DNA from: Lachnospiraceae bacterium
Lineage (GTDB): Bacteria; Bacillota; Clostridia; Lachnospirales; Lachnospiraceae
DNA: 33,068 nucleotides
Direction: 5' to 3'
Assembly: GCA_016288825.1 (NCBI GenBank)
Contig: JAEELH010000090.1
Location: forward strand, 1 to 33,068
In this document: positions 6,153-17,406 of the stretch, piece after piece
Position numbering within the stretch: position 1 is the first letter of the stretch
How the letters are laid out: each line of letters begins with the position of its first letter
Notes under the pieces: generated by a model
Told to the model about the DNA's origin: nothing
Database searches by the model: none
Seen by the model: only the letters and a program-made list of their open reading frames with translations
Program-made: the position numbers and the translations under genes

Positions 6153-6200
6153 GCGCATCGCCAAGGGTACCACACCATATGATGCGTTCCGGTAATACTA
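6153..6200. repeat. Partial direct copy of the right arm of the palindromic element
   Basis: gcgcatcgccaagggtaccacaccatatgatgcgttccggtaatacta resembles gcgcgtcgccaagggtaccatatcttttgatgcgtctcggcaatccta at about 6102-6149. Confidence 0.75.
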
Positions 6201-9200
6201 ATACAACCCGAGCGCCTCATCAAGAAGCGCCACCAACCTGGCCTGATCCACGTCCGCCAGTGCTCTCCTGATATCCTCAAACGCTCCTTCATACTCATCC
6301 GGCACCCTATAGTCCCTTACCTGAGCCATTACCATATCCGCACTGTCAAAATCAAAGGCATTCGCAAACTCTCGCATTGCGTGCAGCGCTTCCCGAAGGT
6401 CATCACCTGAGATCTCAGGCCTCATGTCCTTATCCGCCCGATCTGAAAAGACCGGAGTCAGCTTATCAAAATAACTTCTATAGTCCTTGATAAGACCGGG
6501 AGTATTTTCATCAATAACAGCTACTGAATCCCTGTCACCGTTTTCCGCAGACTTTGCCGCTTCCTCAAGTGACAGTGCCAGTTCGGAAAGGGCTGTGGCA
6601 CCGATAAGCCTAGATGAACTCTTAAGCGCATGTACAAGTATACCATAATTATGGTAATCCTGCTCCTTCCAATATCTTTCAATATCGGATGACTTGGCCG
6701 GGATAGCCTCCACATAGTCGTGGAGAACCGTTGCCAAAAGCTCATCGTTTCCTGTATTCATGATAGCCGTGTCATAATCGATACATGTGATATCTCTAAG
6801 GAAGGCGTACTCATCCGAGCCATCTGAGCGCAGTTCCATCGCCTCTGAGTCAACTGTACCCGGTACCTGTGGCTCATGAGGCACCATTGGCTTGTGGTCA
6901 TCAGGAGGCAGTACCTTTTCTTCGGGAAGATACTGCATGATCATAGCTTCAAAGCGCTTACTGTCAATGGGCTTGGTCAGATAATCATCGAAACCGGCCT
7001 CCATATAGGTGGACCTTGCACCTGATACAGCATTGGCCGTAAGAGCGATAACCGGTGCGTCCTTGCATTTATTATCCTCAAGCTCCCTCATAGCCTTGAG
7101 CGTTTCAATACCATCCATACCGGGCATCATATGATCAAGGAAAATGATATCGTATTCCTTTTCTGAAACCATCCTGAGGGCCGCCTGACCGGAATCGGCC
7201 GTATCAACTCCTACAAGCGTTTCTTTGATAAGGCCTGCTGCCACCGTAAGGTTAAGCTTGGTATCGTCAACCACAAGTATCCTGGCATCCGGTGCAATAA
7301 AGCTTTCCTGATACTTTTCAATGGATGCTCTGGCCCTCTCGTAACTCTCCGAGAAGGCTCCGATAGGCTCCCATTTAACGACTCTCTGTTCCAATCTGAA
7401 GTGGAAGTCAGATCCCTCACCATAGGTAGATTTCACCTCAAGAGAGCTTCCCATAAGATCCAAAAGCTGCTTAACGATATTCATGCCCAGGCCGGTACCC
7501 TCCACGTAACGGTTGCGCTTCTCATCAAGGCGCGCAAAGGGCGTATACAGCTTTTCCAGATCATCCGACTTGATACCTATACCCGTATCAACAACGTGAA
7601 CCTCCAGGGTGATATGCTCGTCATCCTTTTTCTCATAAGACATATCAAGTGTAACCGAACCCTTTTCGGTATACTTTACGCCATTGGAAAGGATATTAAG
7701 GATGACCTGCTTGATTCTAACCTCATCTCCTGCCAGCAAATGCGGTATGTTTTCATCTACTTTAACCTCAAAAGCAAGACCCTTTTCATCTGCTTTGGTC
7801 TGGATCATGTTCACCAGATCATTTATCACTGAGGACAGTTCATACTCAACACTGATGATCTCCATCTTGCCGGCTTCCAGCTTGGAATTGTCTAAAATAT
7901 CATTGATAAGGGACAAAAGTGACCGTCCTGCACTCTTGATGTCGATAGCGTAATCCCTGATGGTATTCTCACGGCTTTCGCGGATGATCATCTCGTCAAG
8001 GCCCAGTACCGCATTGATAGGCGTACGAAGCTCATGGGACATCTGGGAGAAAAACTGACTCTTTGCCTCAGCGGACGCCTGTGCTACTCTCAGATCCTCC
8101 TGCAGCTGCTGCTCCCTCTTAACTGATGCCACATAATCCACCACATTTTCGGCCATCTGGTCCATAGTCCCGTAGAGCATGCCGATCTCGTCATTGGTGA
8201 TGATATCAAGATCGTGGATGGTATAAAGAGCACTGTCCTTTTCATCCTCCGGAGCATCGCAGAAATCCTTCATAGCCGTTGCCATACTGTCAATTGGCAT
8301 TGCGATCTGACGCTTGGCTATATAAACGGAGATGATAACAAAGGGAATTGCTATATTAAGAAGCATCATTATCAGCTTGATATCAAAGGCCAGACCGGTC
8401 TTGTTCATAACAAATCTCCGACTGGAAGCTGCCCGCTCACTGCCGGAAAAATCTCTCTCATCCTTTGAAAGTGCATTATTTTGCTGCGATAAAAGCGTTT
8501 TTTCCTCCGAAGTGGTCGTATCTGAGTTATCTGAATCAGAAGTATCCGTTTCCGATGTATCAGAGGCAGATACATCCTCCGTATCACTTTCTACCAAACT
8601 GCTCCCAAAGGTACCTACTATATCATCAAAATAATTCTTCCTGCGCTCATTATCGTGGAACTCCTCGATAACGCTGTCAGCCACATCCGGGATCAGAGCG
8701 TTGGCAAAACCTGCCGCCGCAATCCCAAGGGCTAATGCCTCAAAAACTATAAGTCGGGTTATCTTTCTCTCCAGCCGTGACGGCATACGCTGTTGCTGTA
8801 CCCTGGCTTCCACTTTTGGATCTTGGGAATAATAATCTCCCATAATAAGATATTTGCGGTACTTTTCCGGCAATCTTACGAGAACAAGCCTTATGATCCC
8901 TACTGCTATAATGATCTCCGGCAATTCCTCAAGAAAATCAAAAAGCGCAGTAAATCCGCCCAGGTCCTGAAAGCCTTTAGCTTCAGCCAGATGGACCAAA
9001 ATGCTATACACATTTCCCAGTGTAAAGGTAAGCCCCGCCACAAGAAGAGCCGTCCTTCTAAACGAAAACAACGCCTTACGCTTTACCCTCTGGTACAGGA
9101 TTATCTGAGCAAACAATATCACTGCCATCATGTACACATGACTTCCCAAAGTGAATATCTCAAATAAAAGTGACATGGCAAAGCCGATCATTCCCGGAAC

Positions 9201-9626
9201 AAGGCCGAAAACTCCCATAAGAACCAGACACGGTATGGACGAAAACTCCATCTTCAAAAGAAGATCATTACTACCAAATGAAATATTCAAAAAATCGGTG
9301 TAATGAAAAAGGATATGGAAGCCGAAACATATGATGACACCCAGGGCAGCCGCCACAGTTCTGACAACATCATCTTTATGCATGAAGAAATAGAACATCT
9401 TCTTTTCGAGTCTGTTCATGCGAAGAGTTCTTGTACGGCGAGCCTCCTCCTTTGCCTTTTGTTTTAAGGCACGGTTCTCTTCTTCAACGATCTTTTTCAT
9501 CTCTCGAAGATCAAGAGCCGGGTGTATCTCACCATCGCGGATACGTTTACAAAGCTCATCCCGCTCAGTCTTTTCTGAGTTGTTATTTGCGTTCTGAAGA
9601 AACTTTGGACGTTTCACGATCTGCAT
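6198..9626 (-). CDS. Membrane hybrid sensor histidine kinase with HisKA, HATPase, REC and C-terminal HPt domains
   Basis: FFSQMSHELRTPINAVLGLDEMI (H box), VEGTGLGMNIVKQLLDLM (G box), REC ILVVDDTKLNLTVAAGLI..DIIFLDHMMPGMDG, HPt HALKSSSRLIGATALSELALSLE. The ORF track starts at 9668, but the ATG at 9626 has an AAGGAG site upstream and is the likelier start. Confidence 0.92.
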   Translation of the reverse strand: MQIVKRPKFLQNANNNSEKTERDELCKRIRDGEIHPALDLREMKKIVEEENRALKQKAKEEARRTRTLRMNRLEKKMFYFFMHKDDVVRTVAAALGVIICFGFHILFHYTDFLNISFGSNDLLLKMEFSSIPCLVLMGVFGLVPGMIGFAMSLLFEIFTLGSHVYMMAVILFAQIILYQRVKRKALFSFRRTALLVAGLTFTLGNVYSILVHLAEAKGFQDLGGFTALFDFLEELPEIIIAVGIIRLVLVRLPEKYRKYLIMGDYYSQDPKVEARVQQQRMPSRLERKITRLIVFEALALGIAAAGFANALIPDVADSVIEEFHDNERRKNYFDDIVGTFGSSLVESDTEDVSASDTSETDTSDSDNSDTTTSEEKTLLSQQNNALSKDERDFSGSERAASSRRFVMNKTGLAFDIKLIMMLLNIAIPFVIISVYIAKRQIAMPIDSMATAMKDFCDAPEDEKDSALYTIHDLDIITNDEIGMLYGTMDQMAENVVDYVASVKREQQLQEDLRVAQASAEAKSQFFSQMSHELRTPINAVLGLDEMIIRESRENTIRDYAIDIKSAGRSLLSLINDILDNSKLEAGKMEIISVEYELSSVINDLVNMIQTKADEKGLAFEVKVDENIPHLLAGDEVRIKQVILNILSNGVKYTEKGSVTLDMSYEKKDDEHITLEVHVVDTGIGIKSDDLEKLYTPFARLDEKRNRYVEGTGLGMNIVKQLLDLMGSSLEVKSTYGEGSDFHFRLEQRVVKWEPIGAFSESYERARASIEKYQESFIAPDARILVVDDTKLNLTVAAGLIKETLVGVDTADSGQAALRMVSEKEYDIIFLDHMMPGMDGIETLKAMRELEDNKCKDAPVIALTANAVSGARSTYMEAGFDDYLTKPIDSKRFEAMIMQYLPEEKVLPPDDHKPMVPHEPQVPGTVDSEAMELRSDGSDEYAFLRDITCIDYDTAIMNTGNDELLATVLHDYVEAIPAKSSDIERYWKEQDYHNYGILVHALKSSSRLIGATALSELALSLEEAAKSAENGDRDSVAVIDENTPGLIKDYRSYFDKLTPVFSDRADKDMRPEISGDDLREALHAMREFANAFDFDSADMVMAQVRDYRVPDEYEGAFEDIRRALADVDQARLVALLDEALGLY

Positions 9627-9681: not shown

Positions 9682-9801
9682 TGTGGATAAAGTGGATAAT
9701 TCCGTTGATAACGATAAAATCGCCATTCTTTAACTAACTTATCCACCAAAAACTACCCTAAAATTGTGGATAACCGTGAAACATTGTCCTACATATCCAC
9801 A
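9682..9801. promoter_or_regulatory. DnaA-box cluster
   Basis: TGTGGATAA at 9682-9690 and 9765-9773 (exact consensus); AGTGGATAA 9691-9699, TTATCCACC 9739-9747 and ATATCCACA 9793-9801 (one mismatch each); weaker CGTTGATAA 9703-9711. Confidence 0.75.
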
Positions 9802-9951
9802 CAGTTTTCGTTTCACAAGGTTTCATATTTTCTGAATATTCTGAAGCAATTCACTATAATTATATTTCAACTATATGGTTTACCAATGGTATTATCGCAA
9901 ACCAACATTAACTCAAACTTAAAAAAGGATGTTTCATCATTATATAGCAAA

Positions 9952-9975
9952 AGGGGCTTTAAAAAAAGCCCCTTA
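9952..9975. terminator. Hairpin terminator downstream of the opp operon
   Basis: AAGGGGCTTT-AAAA-AAAGCCCCTT immediately 3' of the minus-strand ORF ending at 9977. Confidence 0.7.
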
Positions 9976-9976
9976 G

Positions 9977-10264
9977 TCATTTCCATATAAATATCAATAC
10001 TCCGATAAGAACAGCTGCAGCAACGATATACACCCCTCCAATGAGAAATGTCGCGCCCAAGGCACCTCTGAAAGCTGCGCCCCTGCCCTCTTTTCCAAGG
10101 TCCGGAAGATCCGTAGGATAGCTGCTGTTCCCAGCCTCCATGGGCTTTGGAGCACTATCACTACCCGGAACCTTAATGCCTGTAAGAGGTCGGTCCTCCA
10201 GAAAGGTCATATCGGCAACTATCCTGCCGTCATCATCCTCGCGACGATCGTCCTTTCCCATCAC
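9977..10264 (-). CDS. Small C-terminally membrane-anchored protein, last gene of the opp operon
   Basis: 95 aa with C-terminal TM helix (FLIGGVYIVAAAVLIGVLIFIW); overlaps the preceding oppF-like gene by 4 bp. Confidence 0.65.
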   Translation of the reverse strand: MMGKDDRREDDDGRIVADMTFLEDRPLTGIKVPGSDSAPKPMEAGNSSYPTDLPDLGKEGRGAAFRGALGATFLIGGVYIVAAAVLIGVLIFIWK

Positions 10265-11241
10265 TTAACCTCATGACAGGATACAAAGTGTCCCTTTTCG
10301 ATCTCACGCTGGGCAGGAACCTCATTCCTACATCTCTCGGTAGCATAAGGACATCTGGTGTGGAACTTGCATCCGCTGGGCGGGTTAGCCGGTGAAGGAA
10401 TGCTTCCCTCCAGAACCACACGGTTCATCTTGGCACCCGGATCCGGGATAGGAATTGCAGAAAACAGAGCCTTTGTATAAGGATGAAGAGGATGTCTGAA
10501 GATATCCTTTTTCCCACCGTACTCTACAAGATTGCCAAGGTACATAACACCAACGGAATCACTGATATGCTCTACAACCGACAGATCATGTGAAATAAAC
10601 AGGTAAGAGAGCTTTCTCTCATCCTGGAGTTTGTTCAGAAGGTTGATGATCTGCGCCTGGATGGACACATCCAAAGCGGAAACAGGCTCATCACACACTA
10701 CGAACTCCGGATCAAGCGCCAGCGCTCTGGCAATACAGATCCTCTGTCTCTGACCGCCTGAAAACTCATGAGGGTATCTTGCCTTGTGGAAAGGCTGAAG
10801 ACCGCACTCATCCATGATCCTGTCAATATAGTCCTCATACTCGGAAGCAGGAACTATGCCATGCTCCCTTACCGCCTCTCCGATGATCTCACCGACGGGA
10901 AGTCTGGGAGAAAGGGATGAAAAGGGATCCTGGAAGATGATCTGCATCCTGGTACGAAGAGCCCTCATATCCTTGGGAGAAACATCATATACTTCCTGGC
11001 CGTCAAAAAGAACGCTTCCTCCGGTCTTTTCACCTGCCAGACGAAGGATAGTCCTTCCTGTAGTGGTCTTACCACAGCCTGACTCACCTACGAGTCCCAT
11101 GGTAGTACCGCGCTTGAGGTTAAAGGTAACGCCGTCTACGGCCTTGACCTGGCCTATAACCCTGTTAAAATAACCACCCTTGATAGGGAAATACTTTTTG
11201 AGGTCTGAAACCTCAAGAATATTTTCTGATTCAGGCATCAC
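10261..11241 (-). CDS. oppF: Oligopeptide/dipeptide ABC transporter ATP-binding protein (OppF/DppF-like)
   Basis: Walker [16 protein letters not shown], signature FSGGQRQRICIARAL, Walker B FVVCDEPVSALD; OppF C-terminal Cys motif CKFHTRCPYATERC. Confidence 0.93.
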   Translation of the reverse strand: MMPESENILEVSDLKKYFPIKGGYFNRVIGQVKAVDGVTFNLKRGTTMGLVGESGCGKTTTGRTILRLAGEKTGGSVLFDGQEVYDVSPKDMRALRTRMQIIFQDPFSSLSPRLPVGEIIGEAVREHGIVPASEYEDYIDRIMDECGLQPFHKARYPHEFSGGQRQRICIARALALDPEFVVCDEPVSALDVSIQAQIINLLNKLQDERKLSYLFISHDLSVVEHISDSVGVMYLGNLVEYGGKKDIFRHPLHPYTKALFSAIPIPDPGAKMNRVVLEGSIPSPANPPSGCKFHTRCPYATERCRNEVPAQREIEKGHFVSCHEVK

Positions 11242-12457
11242 CCTTCACCTCCTCTCCTGCGGCTGCCATACGGGCCGTCTGAAGGAGATTGGCATTGGCA
11301 GTACGCTCAGCCTCCTCCTTATGCTCCTCATAATATCTATAGCATGACACAACATGAGTGTCTGAAAGACGTATCTCGCAGGGATAATCTCCGTCGCAGC
11401 ATGACATCTTCATCTCGCAACGGTCCCTGAAGTAGCAGTAATTAGGCATATTAACGGGATTGGGTACCTTGCCGGGGATGGAGTAAAGCTCACTCACTTC
11501 ACGTCCTACAACAGGCTTGGATGCCATAAGTCCCAATGTATAGGGATGAGCCGGATGATAGAAGATATCCTCCGCAGTTCCCTTTTCAACTATACGCCCC
11601 GCATACATGACAACAACATAATCTGCCATCTCTGCAATAACACCCAGATCGTGGGTGATGAGCATGATGGACGCATTGATCTTGGACTTGAGGTCACGGA
11701 GCAGATCAAGGATCTGTGCCTGGATCGTAACATCAAGAGCCGTAGTAGGCTCGTCTGCAATAATAACACGGGGATGGCAGGCAAGAGCCATAGCAATGAC
11801 CACGCGCTGCCTCATACCACCCGAAAGCTCGTGAGGATACATATTAGCCACACCCTCACTGTTGGCAATACCAACCAGCTCAAGAGCTTCGATGGTCTGA
11901 CGTCTTATCTCCTCTTTACTTTTGCCCTTGCCCTCATGAAGAGCGATAACCTCATCTACCTGATCACCGATCTTGAATACGGGATTAAGGGAAGTCATGG
12001 GCTCCTGGAAGATCATAGACACTGCGTTACCCCTCAGATCCTGCATGATCTCCTGGGGTGTATTGGCAATATTATAAACCTTGCCACCGCGGTTAAGTCT
12101 GATCTCTCCGGATACTATCTGGCCCTGGGGCCTCTGAAGAAGCTGCATAAGGGACAGTGATGTAACTGACTTGCCGCAGCCCGACTCTCCTACGATACCC
12201 ACGGTCTTACCGATGGGAACATCAAAAGTAACACCGTCTACAGACTTTACTACGCCTGCATCCGTGTAAAAATAGCTGTGGAGATCATCAAACTCCACCT
12301 CATTATTGGGATCACGCATCTGGGTTATGTACTCAGACTCCGGGACATTCTTGCGTTTTCTTTTCTTCTCGAACTCCTCAGTGATCTTTCTGTTTTCTTT
12401 AGAGATCCTTCTGGACTCTTTGGCGGTAAGATATCCCTCACCTTTTTTCCTAAACAT
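11231..12457 (-). CDS. oppD: Oligopeptide/dipeptide ABC transporter ATP-binding protein (OppD/DppD-like)
   Basis: Walker [15 protein letters not shown], signature [15 protein letters not shown], Walker [14 protein letters not shown]. Confidence 0.93.
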
Positions 12458-12468
12458 GCCTAAAACTC

Positions 12469-13998
12469 CTATCTCTTCATTCGGGGATCAAATGCGTCCC
12501 TGAGACCATCACCTACAAAGTTGAATCCGAGAACTGCCACGAGAAGGCAGATACCTGCAGGGATCCATACGAACCAGTAATGGGTCATAACGAATGCATT
12601 ATTAACGTCGTTGATAATGTTACCCCATGAAGCAAAGGGGAACTTGACACCCAGACCAAGGAAGGAAAGGGTAGCCTCTGTAATAATGGTAGAACCAAGG
12701 CTCATTGTACATATAACGATGAGCTGGGGAATGACATTGGGAATAAGATGACGGAAAATACGTCTTCTAACGCTGACTCCCGTAGCCTCTGCTGCAGTCA
12801 TAAACTCCTGCTCCCTGAGGGAAAGTATCTGACCGCGGACCATACGGGCAATACCCGGCCATCCCAAGAATCCCAGAATAAGCATCAGGTAAAGCATACG
12901 GATCTGAGGATCCAGTCTCATACCATCCATAGCCGCTCCCAAAATGATGATAAGAGGCAGCGACGGGATGCAGTAAAAGATATCAACTATACGCATGATA
13001 AGGTTATCGATCCAGCCTCCGAAGTATCCGGAAATACCGCCCAGGATAACTCCCAAAACTGTCTCGATGATAACAACGATGAAACCGATGATAAGTGATA
13101 CGCGGCCACCGTACATAAGACGGGTAAGCATGTCCATACCATTGGTATCTGTACCCAGCCAATGCTTGGATGAAGGCTTGGCATAACTGTCATAAACATA
13201 GGTCTCCTTGCCCTGCTTGATGGAGTAGACCATGGCAGATGCATCATAAGAAACCTTGTAATGCTGCTCCTCGCCGTCGGCATCCGTAAAGTCCATCTCG
13301 TCATTGCCTGAATCGATCATGACCGATACAGCCTCTGCGAATTCTTTGGAGATCTTGACGCCGCTTTGAGCACTGGAAACTACAAGTCTTGTAATATAGC
13401 CTGCATCTCCCGCTGAAGATGTGATCTGTCCCGCATCATCGATAGAATAATCGTCACCCTCTGCGGAAAAACTGCTCTCTCCCGCAACATAGGCCTTGAG
13501 AGCTGCAAGCTTAACATCAAAGGACATATCTCCGGAAGGATTGACGATATCCTTGGATGCATAAGCTAAAAGGGTTGAACCGTCATAAATAGTATAAAGA
13601 TCCTCACCCTCCTTAGTTATGGAATAGGTCACATCCTTGACTTCAAAGGAGTCAGCACCCTTGCCCTCTGCAAGGATGAACTTAGCCTGGAGCAGGGAAG
13701 AAAAATCCTGTCCCTCGGCATTAACATATCTGAAGTCCTTATTGATAGTAGCTGCTGCAAACTCCTTCTGCTGGTTCTCATAGTGATAGAACTGCTCATC
13801 CTGTCTGTAGGGGCTGATAAGTCCGCCTATGAAGGAAAACACAAACATGACAATGAGCATAACAAGACCAACAACAGCTATCTTGTTTCTGAAAAATCTC
13901 TTGGCAACCAGTGCGCCGGGAGAAAGTGTTTTGACACGTCGGTCATCATTGAGCGAGAATTCTTCGCCTGATGATACGGGCGGTGTAACGTCTGACAT
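12469..13998 (-). CDS. oppC: Oligopeptide ABC transporter permease (OppC/DppC-like) with a large extracytoplasmic insertion
   Basis: C-terminal binding-protein-dependent permease domain (EAATGVSVRRRIFRHLIPNVIPQLIV); ~200 aa soluble region between the first TM and the permease core. Confidence 0.9.
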   Translation of the reverse strand: MSDVTPPVSSGEEFSLNDDRRVKTLSPGALVAKRFFRNKIAVVGLVMLIVMFVFSFIGGLISPYRQDEQFYHYENQQKEFAAATINKDFRYVNAEGQDFSSLLQAKFILAEGKGADSFEVKDVTYSITKEGEDLYTIYDGSTLLAYASKDIVNPSGDMSFDVKLAALKAYVAGESSFSAEGDDYSIDDAGQITSSAGDAGYITRLVVSSAQSGVKISKEFAEAVSVMIDSGNDEMDFTDADGEEQHYKVSYDASAMVYSIKQGKETYVYDSYAKPSSKHWLGTDTNGMDMLTRLMYGGRVSLIIGFIVVIIETVLGVILGGISGYFGGWIDNLIMRIVDIFYCIPSLPLIIILGAAMDGMRLDPQIRMLYLMLILGFLGWPGIARMVRGQILSLREQEFMTAAEATGVSVRRRIFRHLIPNVIPQLIVICTMSLGSTIITEATLSFLGLGVKFPFASWGNIINDVNNAFVMTHYWFVWIPAGICLLVAVLGFNFVGDGLRDAFDPRMKR

Positions 13999-14012
13999 AT
14001 CTTCCTCCTTTC

Positions 14013-14999
14013 TTAAGCGATCCTTACACGGGGATCTACCACCGCATAAAGGATATCGGACAACAGGTTACCGGCCAGTGTAAGAATGGCCATAAATGTA
14101 AGATAAAACATGGAAAAAGGAATATCTCCGGCTACCATAGCCTGGTAAGAAATATATCCTATTCCGGGGATCATAAACAGAGTCTCAGTAATGAGTGCTC
14201 CGGCAAAAAGTCCCGGCAGTGAACCACCTACGATGGTTACCAGCGGAATGAGTGTATTGCGGAATGCATGATGGTAAATAACCTTGTTCTCATCAAGTCC
14301 CTTGGCCCGAGCTGTACGGATGTAGTCCGCATTAAGTACCTCAAGCATATTGGTACGGGTATATCTCATAAGCGATCCGATGGAAACGATGACCAGGGTC
14401 ACGATAGGCAGTACCAGATGGTTTGCCTTATCCAAAAACTGTCCCCATGCGGAAAGCTGCTCATAATCCCTGCCTACAAGACCGTAAAGATCAAACCATC
14501 CGAGACCTACGGAAAATGCAAGCTTCAGCAGCGTAGCAAAGAAGAATGTGGGAAGTGAGATACCGACCAGAGCTACTGCTGTGATGACATAGTCTGTTCT
14601 GGAATACTGCTTGGTGGCTGCAATAACTCCCAGAGGAATAGCGATGATAAGCTCCAGGAAAAATGCAACCGCACCCATTACAAAAGAAAGCCAGATAACA
14701 TCTGCAAACTTCTGAACTACAGGAACCGTGTACTTCCAGCTGTCTCCGAAATTTCCTCTGATGGCATCGGAAAGCCAGCGAAGATAACCTGCTACAATAC
14801 CCTTATCAAGACCGTACTGCTCGTTGAGCTGGTCCAGCCACTCACTGTAGGGTTTTGCACCCGGTGCCGCCGAAAGCTGCATGGCCATGTTTTCCACATA
14901 GGATGCCGGCAGACAACGCATAAGTGCATAGATGATAAATGTGACACACAAGAGAATAAATACCGAAAGTATAAGTCTCTTAATTATGAATCTGCGCAT
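14013..14999 (-). CDS. oppB: Oligopeptide ABC transporter permease (OppB/DppB-like)
   Basis: IKRLILSVFILLCVTFIIYALMRCLP N-terminus and RTARAKGLDENKVIYHHAFRNTLIPLVTIVG permease motif. Confidence 0.93.
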   Translation of the reverse strand: MRRFIIKRLILSVFILLCVTFIIYALMRCLPASYVENMAMQLSAAPGAKPYSEWLDQLNEQYGLDKGIVAGYLRWLSDAIRGNFGDSWKYTVPVVQKFADVIWLSFVMGAVAFFLELIIAIPLGVIAATKQYSRTDYVITAVALVGISLPTFFFATLLKLAFSVGLGWFDLYGLVGRDYEQLSAWGQFLDKANHLVLPIVTLVIVSIGSLMRYTRTNMLEVLNADYIRTARAKGLDENKVIYHHAFRNTLIPLVTIVGGSLPGLFAGALITETLFMIPGIGYISYQAMVAGDIPFSMFYLTFMAILTLAGNLLSDILYAVVDPRVRIA

Positions 15000-15043
15000 T
15001 GATGATTACCTCTTCTAATTTATTGAAATGGGCAAAAAAGCCC

Positions 15044-15123
15044 GTGTATGGCATCGGTTTAACGTGTTAAAGTACGATACCATACACAGGCACAAAGCCG
15101 CCCTTATGCCCCGGCGGCTTTGT
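15044..15123 (-). terminator. Tandem stem-loops between oppA and oppB (putative attenuator/mRNA-stabilising structure)
   Basis: ACAAAGCCGCC-cttatgcccc-GGCGGCTTTGT (15092-15123) and GTGTATGG..CCATACAC (15044-15087), just 3' of the oppA-like stop codon. Confidence 0.7.
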
Positions 15124-15132
15124 GAATAATAA

Positions 15133-17406
15133 TTATTTTGCTGCAAGAGTTTTGATACCGTCTGCCCATCCGAAGTAAGGTGTCATATCTGTAGGGATGG
15201 TATCAAGGTTAACTCTCTCTGTAGAGAATACATAAGCCTCGGATCTCTGATAGATCGGGATCTCAACGCCCCAGTCCATGATGATCTCCATAGCTGCCTT
15301 ATAAAGGCCCTTGCGGTAGTTCTGATCTGTAGACTGACGAGCTGTAATGATCAGATCATCAAGATCCTCATCGTTGATCTTGTAGTAATTGGTTGAACCC
15401 TTGCTGTGATACAGCTGATACATATCGGGATCGGAACCTGACTGCCATGCTGCACACCACATCTCAGCTACACCTGTCTGATATGAGCTGTAAAGATCTG
15501 AAGCATTGGCAAGGTCGTTAACTGTAAGTGTAAGACCGATCTTTGCGAAAGCATCTGCAGCGTTCTTAAGAAGCAGGAATGAAGGATGATCTCCTGTACC
15601 GCCTCCGCCGATATTAACCTGGTACTCAAGCTTAGCGCCTGCAGGAGCTGCTGTAAGCTTGCCGCCCTCTACAGTATAGCCGGCCTTCTCGAAGTATCCG
15701 AGAGCTGCCTGAAGAGCCTCATCATACTTCTCGTCTCCGGTCTCGCCGCCCTGATAGATATCATTGCCGTCAACATCCTTGGAGTAAGCAAGCTGGTAAC
15801 CGTCATCGGTAACCTGAGGAGCTGCCCAGGATGTATTGGAGATAGGATAGTTGATAACTGAAGCAGTGCTGCCGTAGTAAGAATCAATAGCCTCATCACG
15901 GTAAGCTGCGATAACAGTTCCGATAGCCTTACGAAGAGCCTTGGACTCCTCAGATGCGGGATCATCGCCAACCTTTACGTTGTCAGCTGAAATACCAATG
16001 TATCCGTATCCACGGAAGTCGATAAGCTTGGTTGTGATGATGTCTCCGTCAAACTCGTTAGGATCTGAAAGTCCGTTGATCTCTGCGATCTGGGAAGCGA
16101 TCTCTGTTGAGTATGTAGGATCTGCAATATCGATAGTACCTGTCTGGATACCGGGAACCTTGTCGGCTTCCTGTGTATCGATGAAGTTCAGATATCTGGT
16201 TGCGGGTGCACCCTCGTAATATGAAGGGTTGGACTCAAGGTATCCTGTACCGTTGGAGTAGCTCTTGTATACGTAGGGACCTGCACCAAGGGGCTCAGTT
16301 GTCTTAGCACGTACTGTGGAAAGATCACCCTTGTCAAATCCGAACTTGTTGTTATCGTAATCATACTTGGAAGTATCACCATAGTAATGAAGGGGTGCTA
16401 CATAGAAACCAAGCTGATAGATAAATGAAGCATCAAGCTCTGTTGTTGTGATAGTCATGCTGTAATCGCTGGTCTTAACGATACCGGAGATGTTAGCAGC
16501 GGAATCACCTGTGGAAACACCTATGGTGGGATAATCATATACATCAGCAGGGATAAGATCTGCAAGAGCTGTACCGGCTGTCTCCTTCTCCATGTCTGAG
16601 AAGTTCCATCCGTACTGATTACCGATAGCAATGAAGAAGTCCTTTGCTGTAGCGCCGTCCTCAAGGTCAAAGCCCCAGTTAGCAGCTGCGTCCTTCATGG
16701 ACATGGACTCATCTCCGAAGTAAGCCTGGATCTCCTCGCAGAACTTAACTCCGCCGTCATTAACTGCATCCCAGAATGCCTTCTGCTGCTCCTCGGTCCA
16801 GAGTGAGAAGTCTGTGTTGTCCTCACCTGCTGCTCCGATGAGTGCTGAAAGAGTGCTCATACCCTCACGGTACTCAGCCATACCCTTGATGGGTGAAGAA
16901 TAAAGAGTTGTTGATCCGTTATATGTGGGATCTGCATATACATAAAGTGAAAAGATAACATCATCGATGGTAACGGGCTCTCCGTCGGAGAACTTGATGT
17001 CGTCACGCATCTTAACGTCATATGTAACGGTTCCGTCAGAATTCTCGGTTACAACGATATCTGCGGGACCGGTATAAGTATACTCTGTTCCGTTGTACTC
17101 ACGGGTCTCTCCCTCGATTCCGTTAAGTACGGGATTGGACACACGGTCAACATTCATGAGCAGGATCTGTGTAAGACCTACAAATCTCTGGTCATCAACA
17201 TTCTGTGCGAAGAAAGGTGAAAACTTCTGCTCAAAACCTGTGGAGCAAGCCACGAGTCTTGTCTCGTTTTCAGTTGCCTGTGACTGGTCGCCAGATTTGC
17301 CGGAATCTCCGCCCTTCTGGCCTGTGCTGCCGCCACCGCATGCTGCAAGTGAAACTGTCATTGCAGCTGCAAGAATGACGCCAAGCCACTTCTTAGCGTT
17401 TCTCAT
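15133..17406 (-). CDS. oppA: Oligopeptide ABC transporter substrate-binding lipoprotein (SBP_bac_5 family)
   Basis: Lipoprotein signal ([15 protein letters not shown]); extracellular solute-binding family 5 features ([37 protein letters not shown]). Confidence 0.92.

Follow-up and report, generated by a model that had tools for sequence, protein, structure and literature searches.

The datA and DARS2 loci of Escherichia coli, which lie away from oriC, work with IHF. In vivo, DnaA of E. coli prefers pairs of boxes that are 2-3 bp apart (PMC11317965). In Bacillus subtilis, sda is activated by DnaA, which also seems to repress several further genes by way of arrays (PMC4447404), and removal of six extra-oriC clusters results in early initiation (PMC5295017). 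In the literature searched, we found no description of a DnaA regulon in Clostridia, and nothing relevant on DnaA boxes in Lachnospiraceae, the papers retrieved otherwise dealing with Bacillus, C. difficile and E. coli.

Here, we describe a cluster of DnaA boxes in a 33,068-nt stretch of DNA (hereafter, the window) from a Lachnospiraceae bacterium (contig JAEELH010000090.1). Comparison with related loci indicates that this cluster probably binds DnaA outside oriC and thereby controls a hybrid histidine kinase gene.

Results

Composition of the DnaA-Box Cluster

In all, the cluster consists of two exact DnaA boxes, three boxes with one mismatch and one weaker box, in both orientations; all six, which had been reported in a first-pass annotation of the window, were retrieved within 120 bp (9682-9801; Table 1). 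The core is formed by the weak box, 3 bp, and box C, then the directly abutting box D. The array extends from 55 to 175 bp before the start codon of the kinase gene. That gene, which was said to have the cluster just upstream of its start, was confirmed and has a good ribosome-binding site ahead of the ATG at 9626. The AT-rich flank is equally real, its GC content being 26%, compared with 46.4% for the window as a whole. The window has neither an Rfam match nor a tRNA and, consequently, no known riboswitch leader.

Table 1. Features at and around the DnaA-box cluster (window coordinates; G003, G398, G085 and G386 are genomes with a homologous kinase gene, see text).
Feature	Position	Strand	Remarks
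Hybrid histidine kinase gene (membrane N-terminus, HisKA, HATPase_c, REC, Hpt); likely target gene	6198..9626	-	Domains found
DnaA box D, TTATCCACA, exact	9682..9690	-	55 bp from kinase start codon; also in G003, G398 and G085 homologues
DnaA box C, TTATCCACT, abuts box D	9691..9699	-	Kept in G003, G398, G085 and G386
Weak DnaA box, TTATCAACG, 2 mismatches, 3 bp from box C	9703..9711	-	
DnaA box B, TTATCCACC, inverted, 48 bp from box C	9739..9747	+	In G003 and G386, oriented alike and 48-49 bp from box C
DnaA box A, TTATCCACA, exact, 74 bp from box C	9765..9773	-	74-75 bp from box C in G003, G398 and G085
DnaA box, ATATCCACA, inverted	9793..9801	+	Not conserved in nearest homologue (G003)
AT-rich stretch, 26% GC	9820..9950	.	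GC computed
Promoter-like TTGGTA-16-TATAAT in AT-rich stretch	9886-9859	-	Match no better than chance
Intrinsic-terminator-like hairpin, then TTTT; closes opp operon	9951..9974	-	z = -4.0
opp operon (oligopeptide ABC transporter), its last ORF small; lies upstream, on the kinase strand	9977..17406	-	

Pattern searches of the host genome assembly (2.6 Mb in 259 contigs, 82% complete) retrieved 23 exact DnaA boxes, and the two in the window, 83 bp apart, constitute the only exact pair less than 1.1 kb apart. Boxes with one mismatch are frequent singly (940 in the genome, the exact ones counted in), by which one could suppose that the cluster arose by chance in AT-rich intergenic DNA. In a simulated genome of 2.6 Mb (order-2 Markov), however, the densest group amounted to 3 boxes in 130 bp, while the window has 5 (boxes with at most one mismatch). 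The simulation and the occurrence of the cluster in three genera (see below) leave chance with scarcely any probability; in fact, the conservation already refutes it. Multiple DnaA boxes are present in a short intergenic stretch at a density above chance, as is typical for extra-oriC promoter clusters of the B. subtilis sda kind.

Position Relative to the Replication Origin

The first-pass annotation had also considered oriC or a secondary-replicon origin. In favour of an origin, be it that of the chromosome or that of a secondary or integrated replicon, the cluster does adjoin AT-rich DNA. That AT-rich part, however, holds the opp terminator, and dnaA, rightly reported as absent from the window, is located on another contig, C69, with a neighbour taken as dnaN, with rnpA and with other oriC genes (for C69 genes other than dnaA, the names derive from their position and from reading of the sequence). 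When the dnaA/dnaN region and the GC skew were checked, the skew on C69 was found to rise from negative to positive values at dnaA; that of the window is negative nearly throughout, with no switch around 9.7 kb. The gap between dnaA and dnaN on C69 has boxes in tandem, a step in GC content and a run, TACTACT, of the kind that a DnaA-trio would show; no such trio follows the doublet in the window. A crude count gave a trio run of 1 in the window and in the related locus of a congener (G003), and of 2 in the C69 gap, where TACTACT was recognised by eye. Among the genes adjoining the cluster, we recognised none for a replication initiator, in a window in which some of the ORFs are annotated.

Hence, the cluster lacks what defines an oriC in Firmicutes, i.e., the rpmH-dnaA-dnaN context, a GC-skew switch and a DnaA-trio by tandem boxes. 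Because dnaA, the skew switch and a trio-like run occur on another contig, and the window has neither switch nor trio, the cluster is not oriC, and we regard an origin of either kind as exceedingly improbable at this site.

Conservation of the Cluster with the Kinase Gene

The kinase is an accessory protein, present in five of 397 family genomes. Its closest homologue, 56-57% identical, occurs in the congener G003. A search of the 397 family genomes with the N-terminus of the kinase as the query, at the protein level only and without DNA, identified four homologues outside the genus (G398, G085, G386 and G077). G398 and G085 belong to one genus, their kinases being 65% identical, and G386 belongs to another; the order of the Pfam domains is the same in all three.

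In two of these genomes (G398 and G386; L162:988-1755 and L164:514-1290), the kinase gene is followed by one for a protein that combines a receiver domain with an additional N-terminal part and is likely to be a partner of the kinase. In the window, the next gene after the kinase encodes a methyltransferase, not a receiver-domain protein.

Three to five boxes are present within 180 bp of the start codon in five of the seven kinase homologues, window included, representing three genera; the genomes that carry the homologues are mostly fragmentary. This conserved placement upstream of a gene is a second characteristic of extra-oriC clusters. Outside the genus, four exact boxes each were found right upstream of the kinase in G398 and G085, and three in G386, while there are no boxes upstream of the two more distant homologues (the C14 copy in G007, and G077).

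The conservation concerns the arrangement as well as the number of boxes. In G003, boxes A-D occur in the same order and orientation as in the window. The spacing from box A to box C is 74 bp in the window, 75 bp in G003, and 74 bp in both G398 and G085. Box B, which is inverted, occurs 48 bp from box C in the window, 49 bp in G003 and 48 bp in G386. The core sequence TCAACRGARTTATCCACWTTATCCACA is present in the window, G003, G398 and G085, the weak box having a TCAACRGAR core in these same four. Between the window and G003, identity is 34/35 in the boxes and 10/12 in the weak box, and 22/43 in the spacers (Fisher p = 2.9e-6, for two sequences compared, with columns taken as independent).

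Upstream of the cluster, the two congeners have different neighbours: the opp operon in the window, and a small membrane-protein ORF in G003. Upstream of 24 other hybrid kinases, we found 0 or 1 box each, a control that is only partial because approximately one-third of these loci hold less than 250 bp of upstream sequence. A check in relatives, proposed with the first-pass annotation, has thus shown the cluster to be kept with the kinase in three genera, core and spacing included. DnaA control of the 6198-9626 kinase, which had been offered as one alternative, gains support, as the cluster stays with the kinase although the gene upstream is different in congeners; of all the evidence, this conservation weighs most.

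Occurrence of the Module Elsewhere in Clostridia

The 27-base core, with at most three mismatches, was found in 41 of the 397 family genomes, and the reversed pattern was absent among the matches listed. The bare doublet (at most two mismatches) occurs in 13/13 genomes of the genus, several of the matches having two mismatches; the reversed control gave 0-1 per genome. The exact doublet was retrieved from 30 of 148 Clostridia genomes (control, 0). Module sites in relatives include those at a murC/DnaD-type gene, hpf, luxS, mntP/tyrS, trmB and a PucR-type regulator. Since these contexts were read from a subset of the matches and the window itself supplied the core, the tallies describe this core pattern only.

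Between murC and a replication gene of the DnaD/DnaB_2 type, most congeners have two tandem DnaA doublets 86-88 bp apart (L072, L073, L080, L089 and L090), an arrangement that suggests DnaA control of a primosome gene; the murC/dnaD intergenic region is missing from the host genome assembly. At luxS in congeners (L087, L092 and L093), there is a four-box geometry, in which boxes 10 bp apart are followed, 64-65 bp on, by a 9-bp doublet; the same geometry recurs in another genus, upstream of the G398 and G085 kinases (L162 and L163). The mntP/tyrS cluster (G002:C16, L077; G012:C24, L068) is located 22-27 kb from dnaA and is therefore origin-proximal, like some B. subtilis clusters.

A longer element is present in Lachnospiraceae (L037-L066; e.g., L041, L047 and L055). 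It consists of GTTATCCACA, approximately 43 bp, and GTTATNCACGGAG-TTATCCACW-TTATCCACA, and continues with a GAACNNNTGTTTTGT-like and a CTTGACA-like motif; it stands before hpf, trmB or a PucR-type gene. Its first motif, GTTATCCACA, resembles by sequence the clostridial LexA box. We considered the window cluster as a copy of the hpf/NlpC-linked element and rejected this: the core is shared, but box A is 74 rather than 53 bp away, and the TGTTTTGT and TTGACA parts are missing. The hpf/NlpC-linked type and the kinase type are separate sites, since G003 harbours both (L084 and L002).

The TTATCCACA-like repeats might, alternatively, serve as operators for a regulator other than DnaA whose site is similar, given that the identity of the boxes is read from the DNA and that Spo0A boxes resemble DnaA boxes (PMC5295017). 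We consider this very improbable: the consensus that is matched is exactly that of DnaA, with an E. coli-type double box included, the host DnaA ends in the typical box-binding motif GGRDHSTIIHG, and the doublet also occurs in the dnaA-dnaN intergenic region of another clostridial genome (L154).

Discussion

A DnaA-titration or recycling site of the datA, DARS or B. subtilis cluster type would buffer free DnaA, with the kinase gene as a bystander. The box content and loose architecture fit such a site, the window holds the only close pair of exact boxes in the assembled genome, and clusters with the same core occur at several loci in relatives; the early initiation caused by cluster removal in B. 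subtilis (PMC5295017) is a precedent, and titration without gene control would leave identical boxes. However, the element tracks one accessory kinase family across genera, in a fixed place near the start codon, and buffering would not need such linkage to a gene so sparsely distributed in the family. Since the cluster goes with the kinase in those five of 397 genomes, gene control fits better, and a datA/DARS-like or titration role is less likely than control of the kinase; we think it unlikely overall.

DnaA binding, an effect on transcription, the sign of that effect and its physiological coupling are what we infer for control of the kinase gene. DnaA would bind the high-affinity core, 55-85 bp upstream of the kinase start codon, as well as helper boxes situated another 48 and 74 bp upstream, a helper box being located approximately seven helical turns away. 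The resulting complex would change transcription of the hybrid kinase gene, most likely by repression, with DnaA occupying the promoter or leader; a complex on the array could block either. Repression is a first guess by analogy, made because arrays in B. subtilis apparently allow DnaA to repress several genes, although sda is activated. The level of the kinase would then track DnaA activity and, hence, the replication state.

On a wider scale, it is conceivable, although we would stop short of calling it probable, that a membrane hybrid histidine kinase is under the direct control of DnaA, a phosphorelay thus being wired to the initiator, and that the stereotyped triple-box module at a few promoters in Clostridia (dnaD, hpf, luxS, tyrS and others) marks an undescribed DnaA regulon. 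If true, the replication initiator would directly set how much of a signalling kinase is present in Lachnospiraceae, by a wiring more direct than the DnaA-sda-KinA route of B. subtilis, and the fixed geometry of the boxes would provide a ready search pattern for a DnaA regulon in Clostridia.

Amongst known systems, the sda promoter region of B. subtilis, with eight boxes and activated by DnaA, is similar in that an array is situated upstream of a histidine-kinase phosphorelay gene (PMC4447404, PMC5295017); sda, however, specifies a small kinase inhibitor, whereas the window gene encodes the kinase itself, and the two genes are unrelated. The B. subtilis clusters at ywlC, ywcI/vpr, yydA, trmE and gcp are likewise multi-box, extra-oriC and mostly intergenic near promoters, and many are apparently DnaA-repressed, but they have 4-11 sites, other neighbours and a demonstrated role in initiation timing. 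Like E. coli datA and DARS, the window cluster is a non-coding group of DnaA boxes away from oriC; unlike them, it is linked to one accessory gene. The TTATCAACG-3 bp-TTATCCACT arrangement corresponds to the double-box form bound preferentially in vivo by E. coli DnaA, and a weak box 3 bp from a good box is also found at E. coli double-box targets, e.g., purH (PMC11317965), from which the window cluster differs by a third, abutting box and by helper boxes 48 and 74 bp away.
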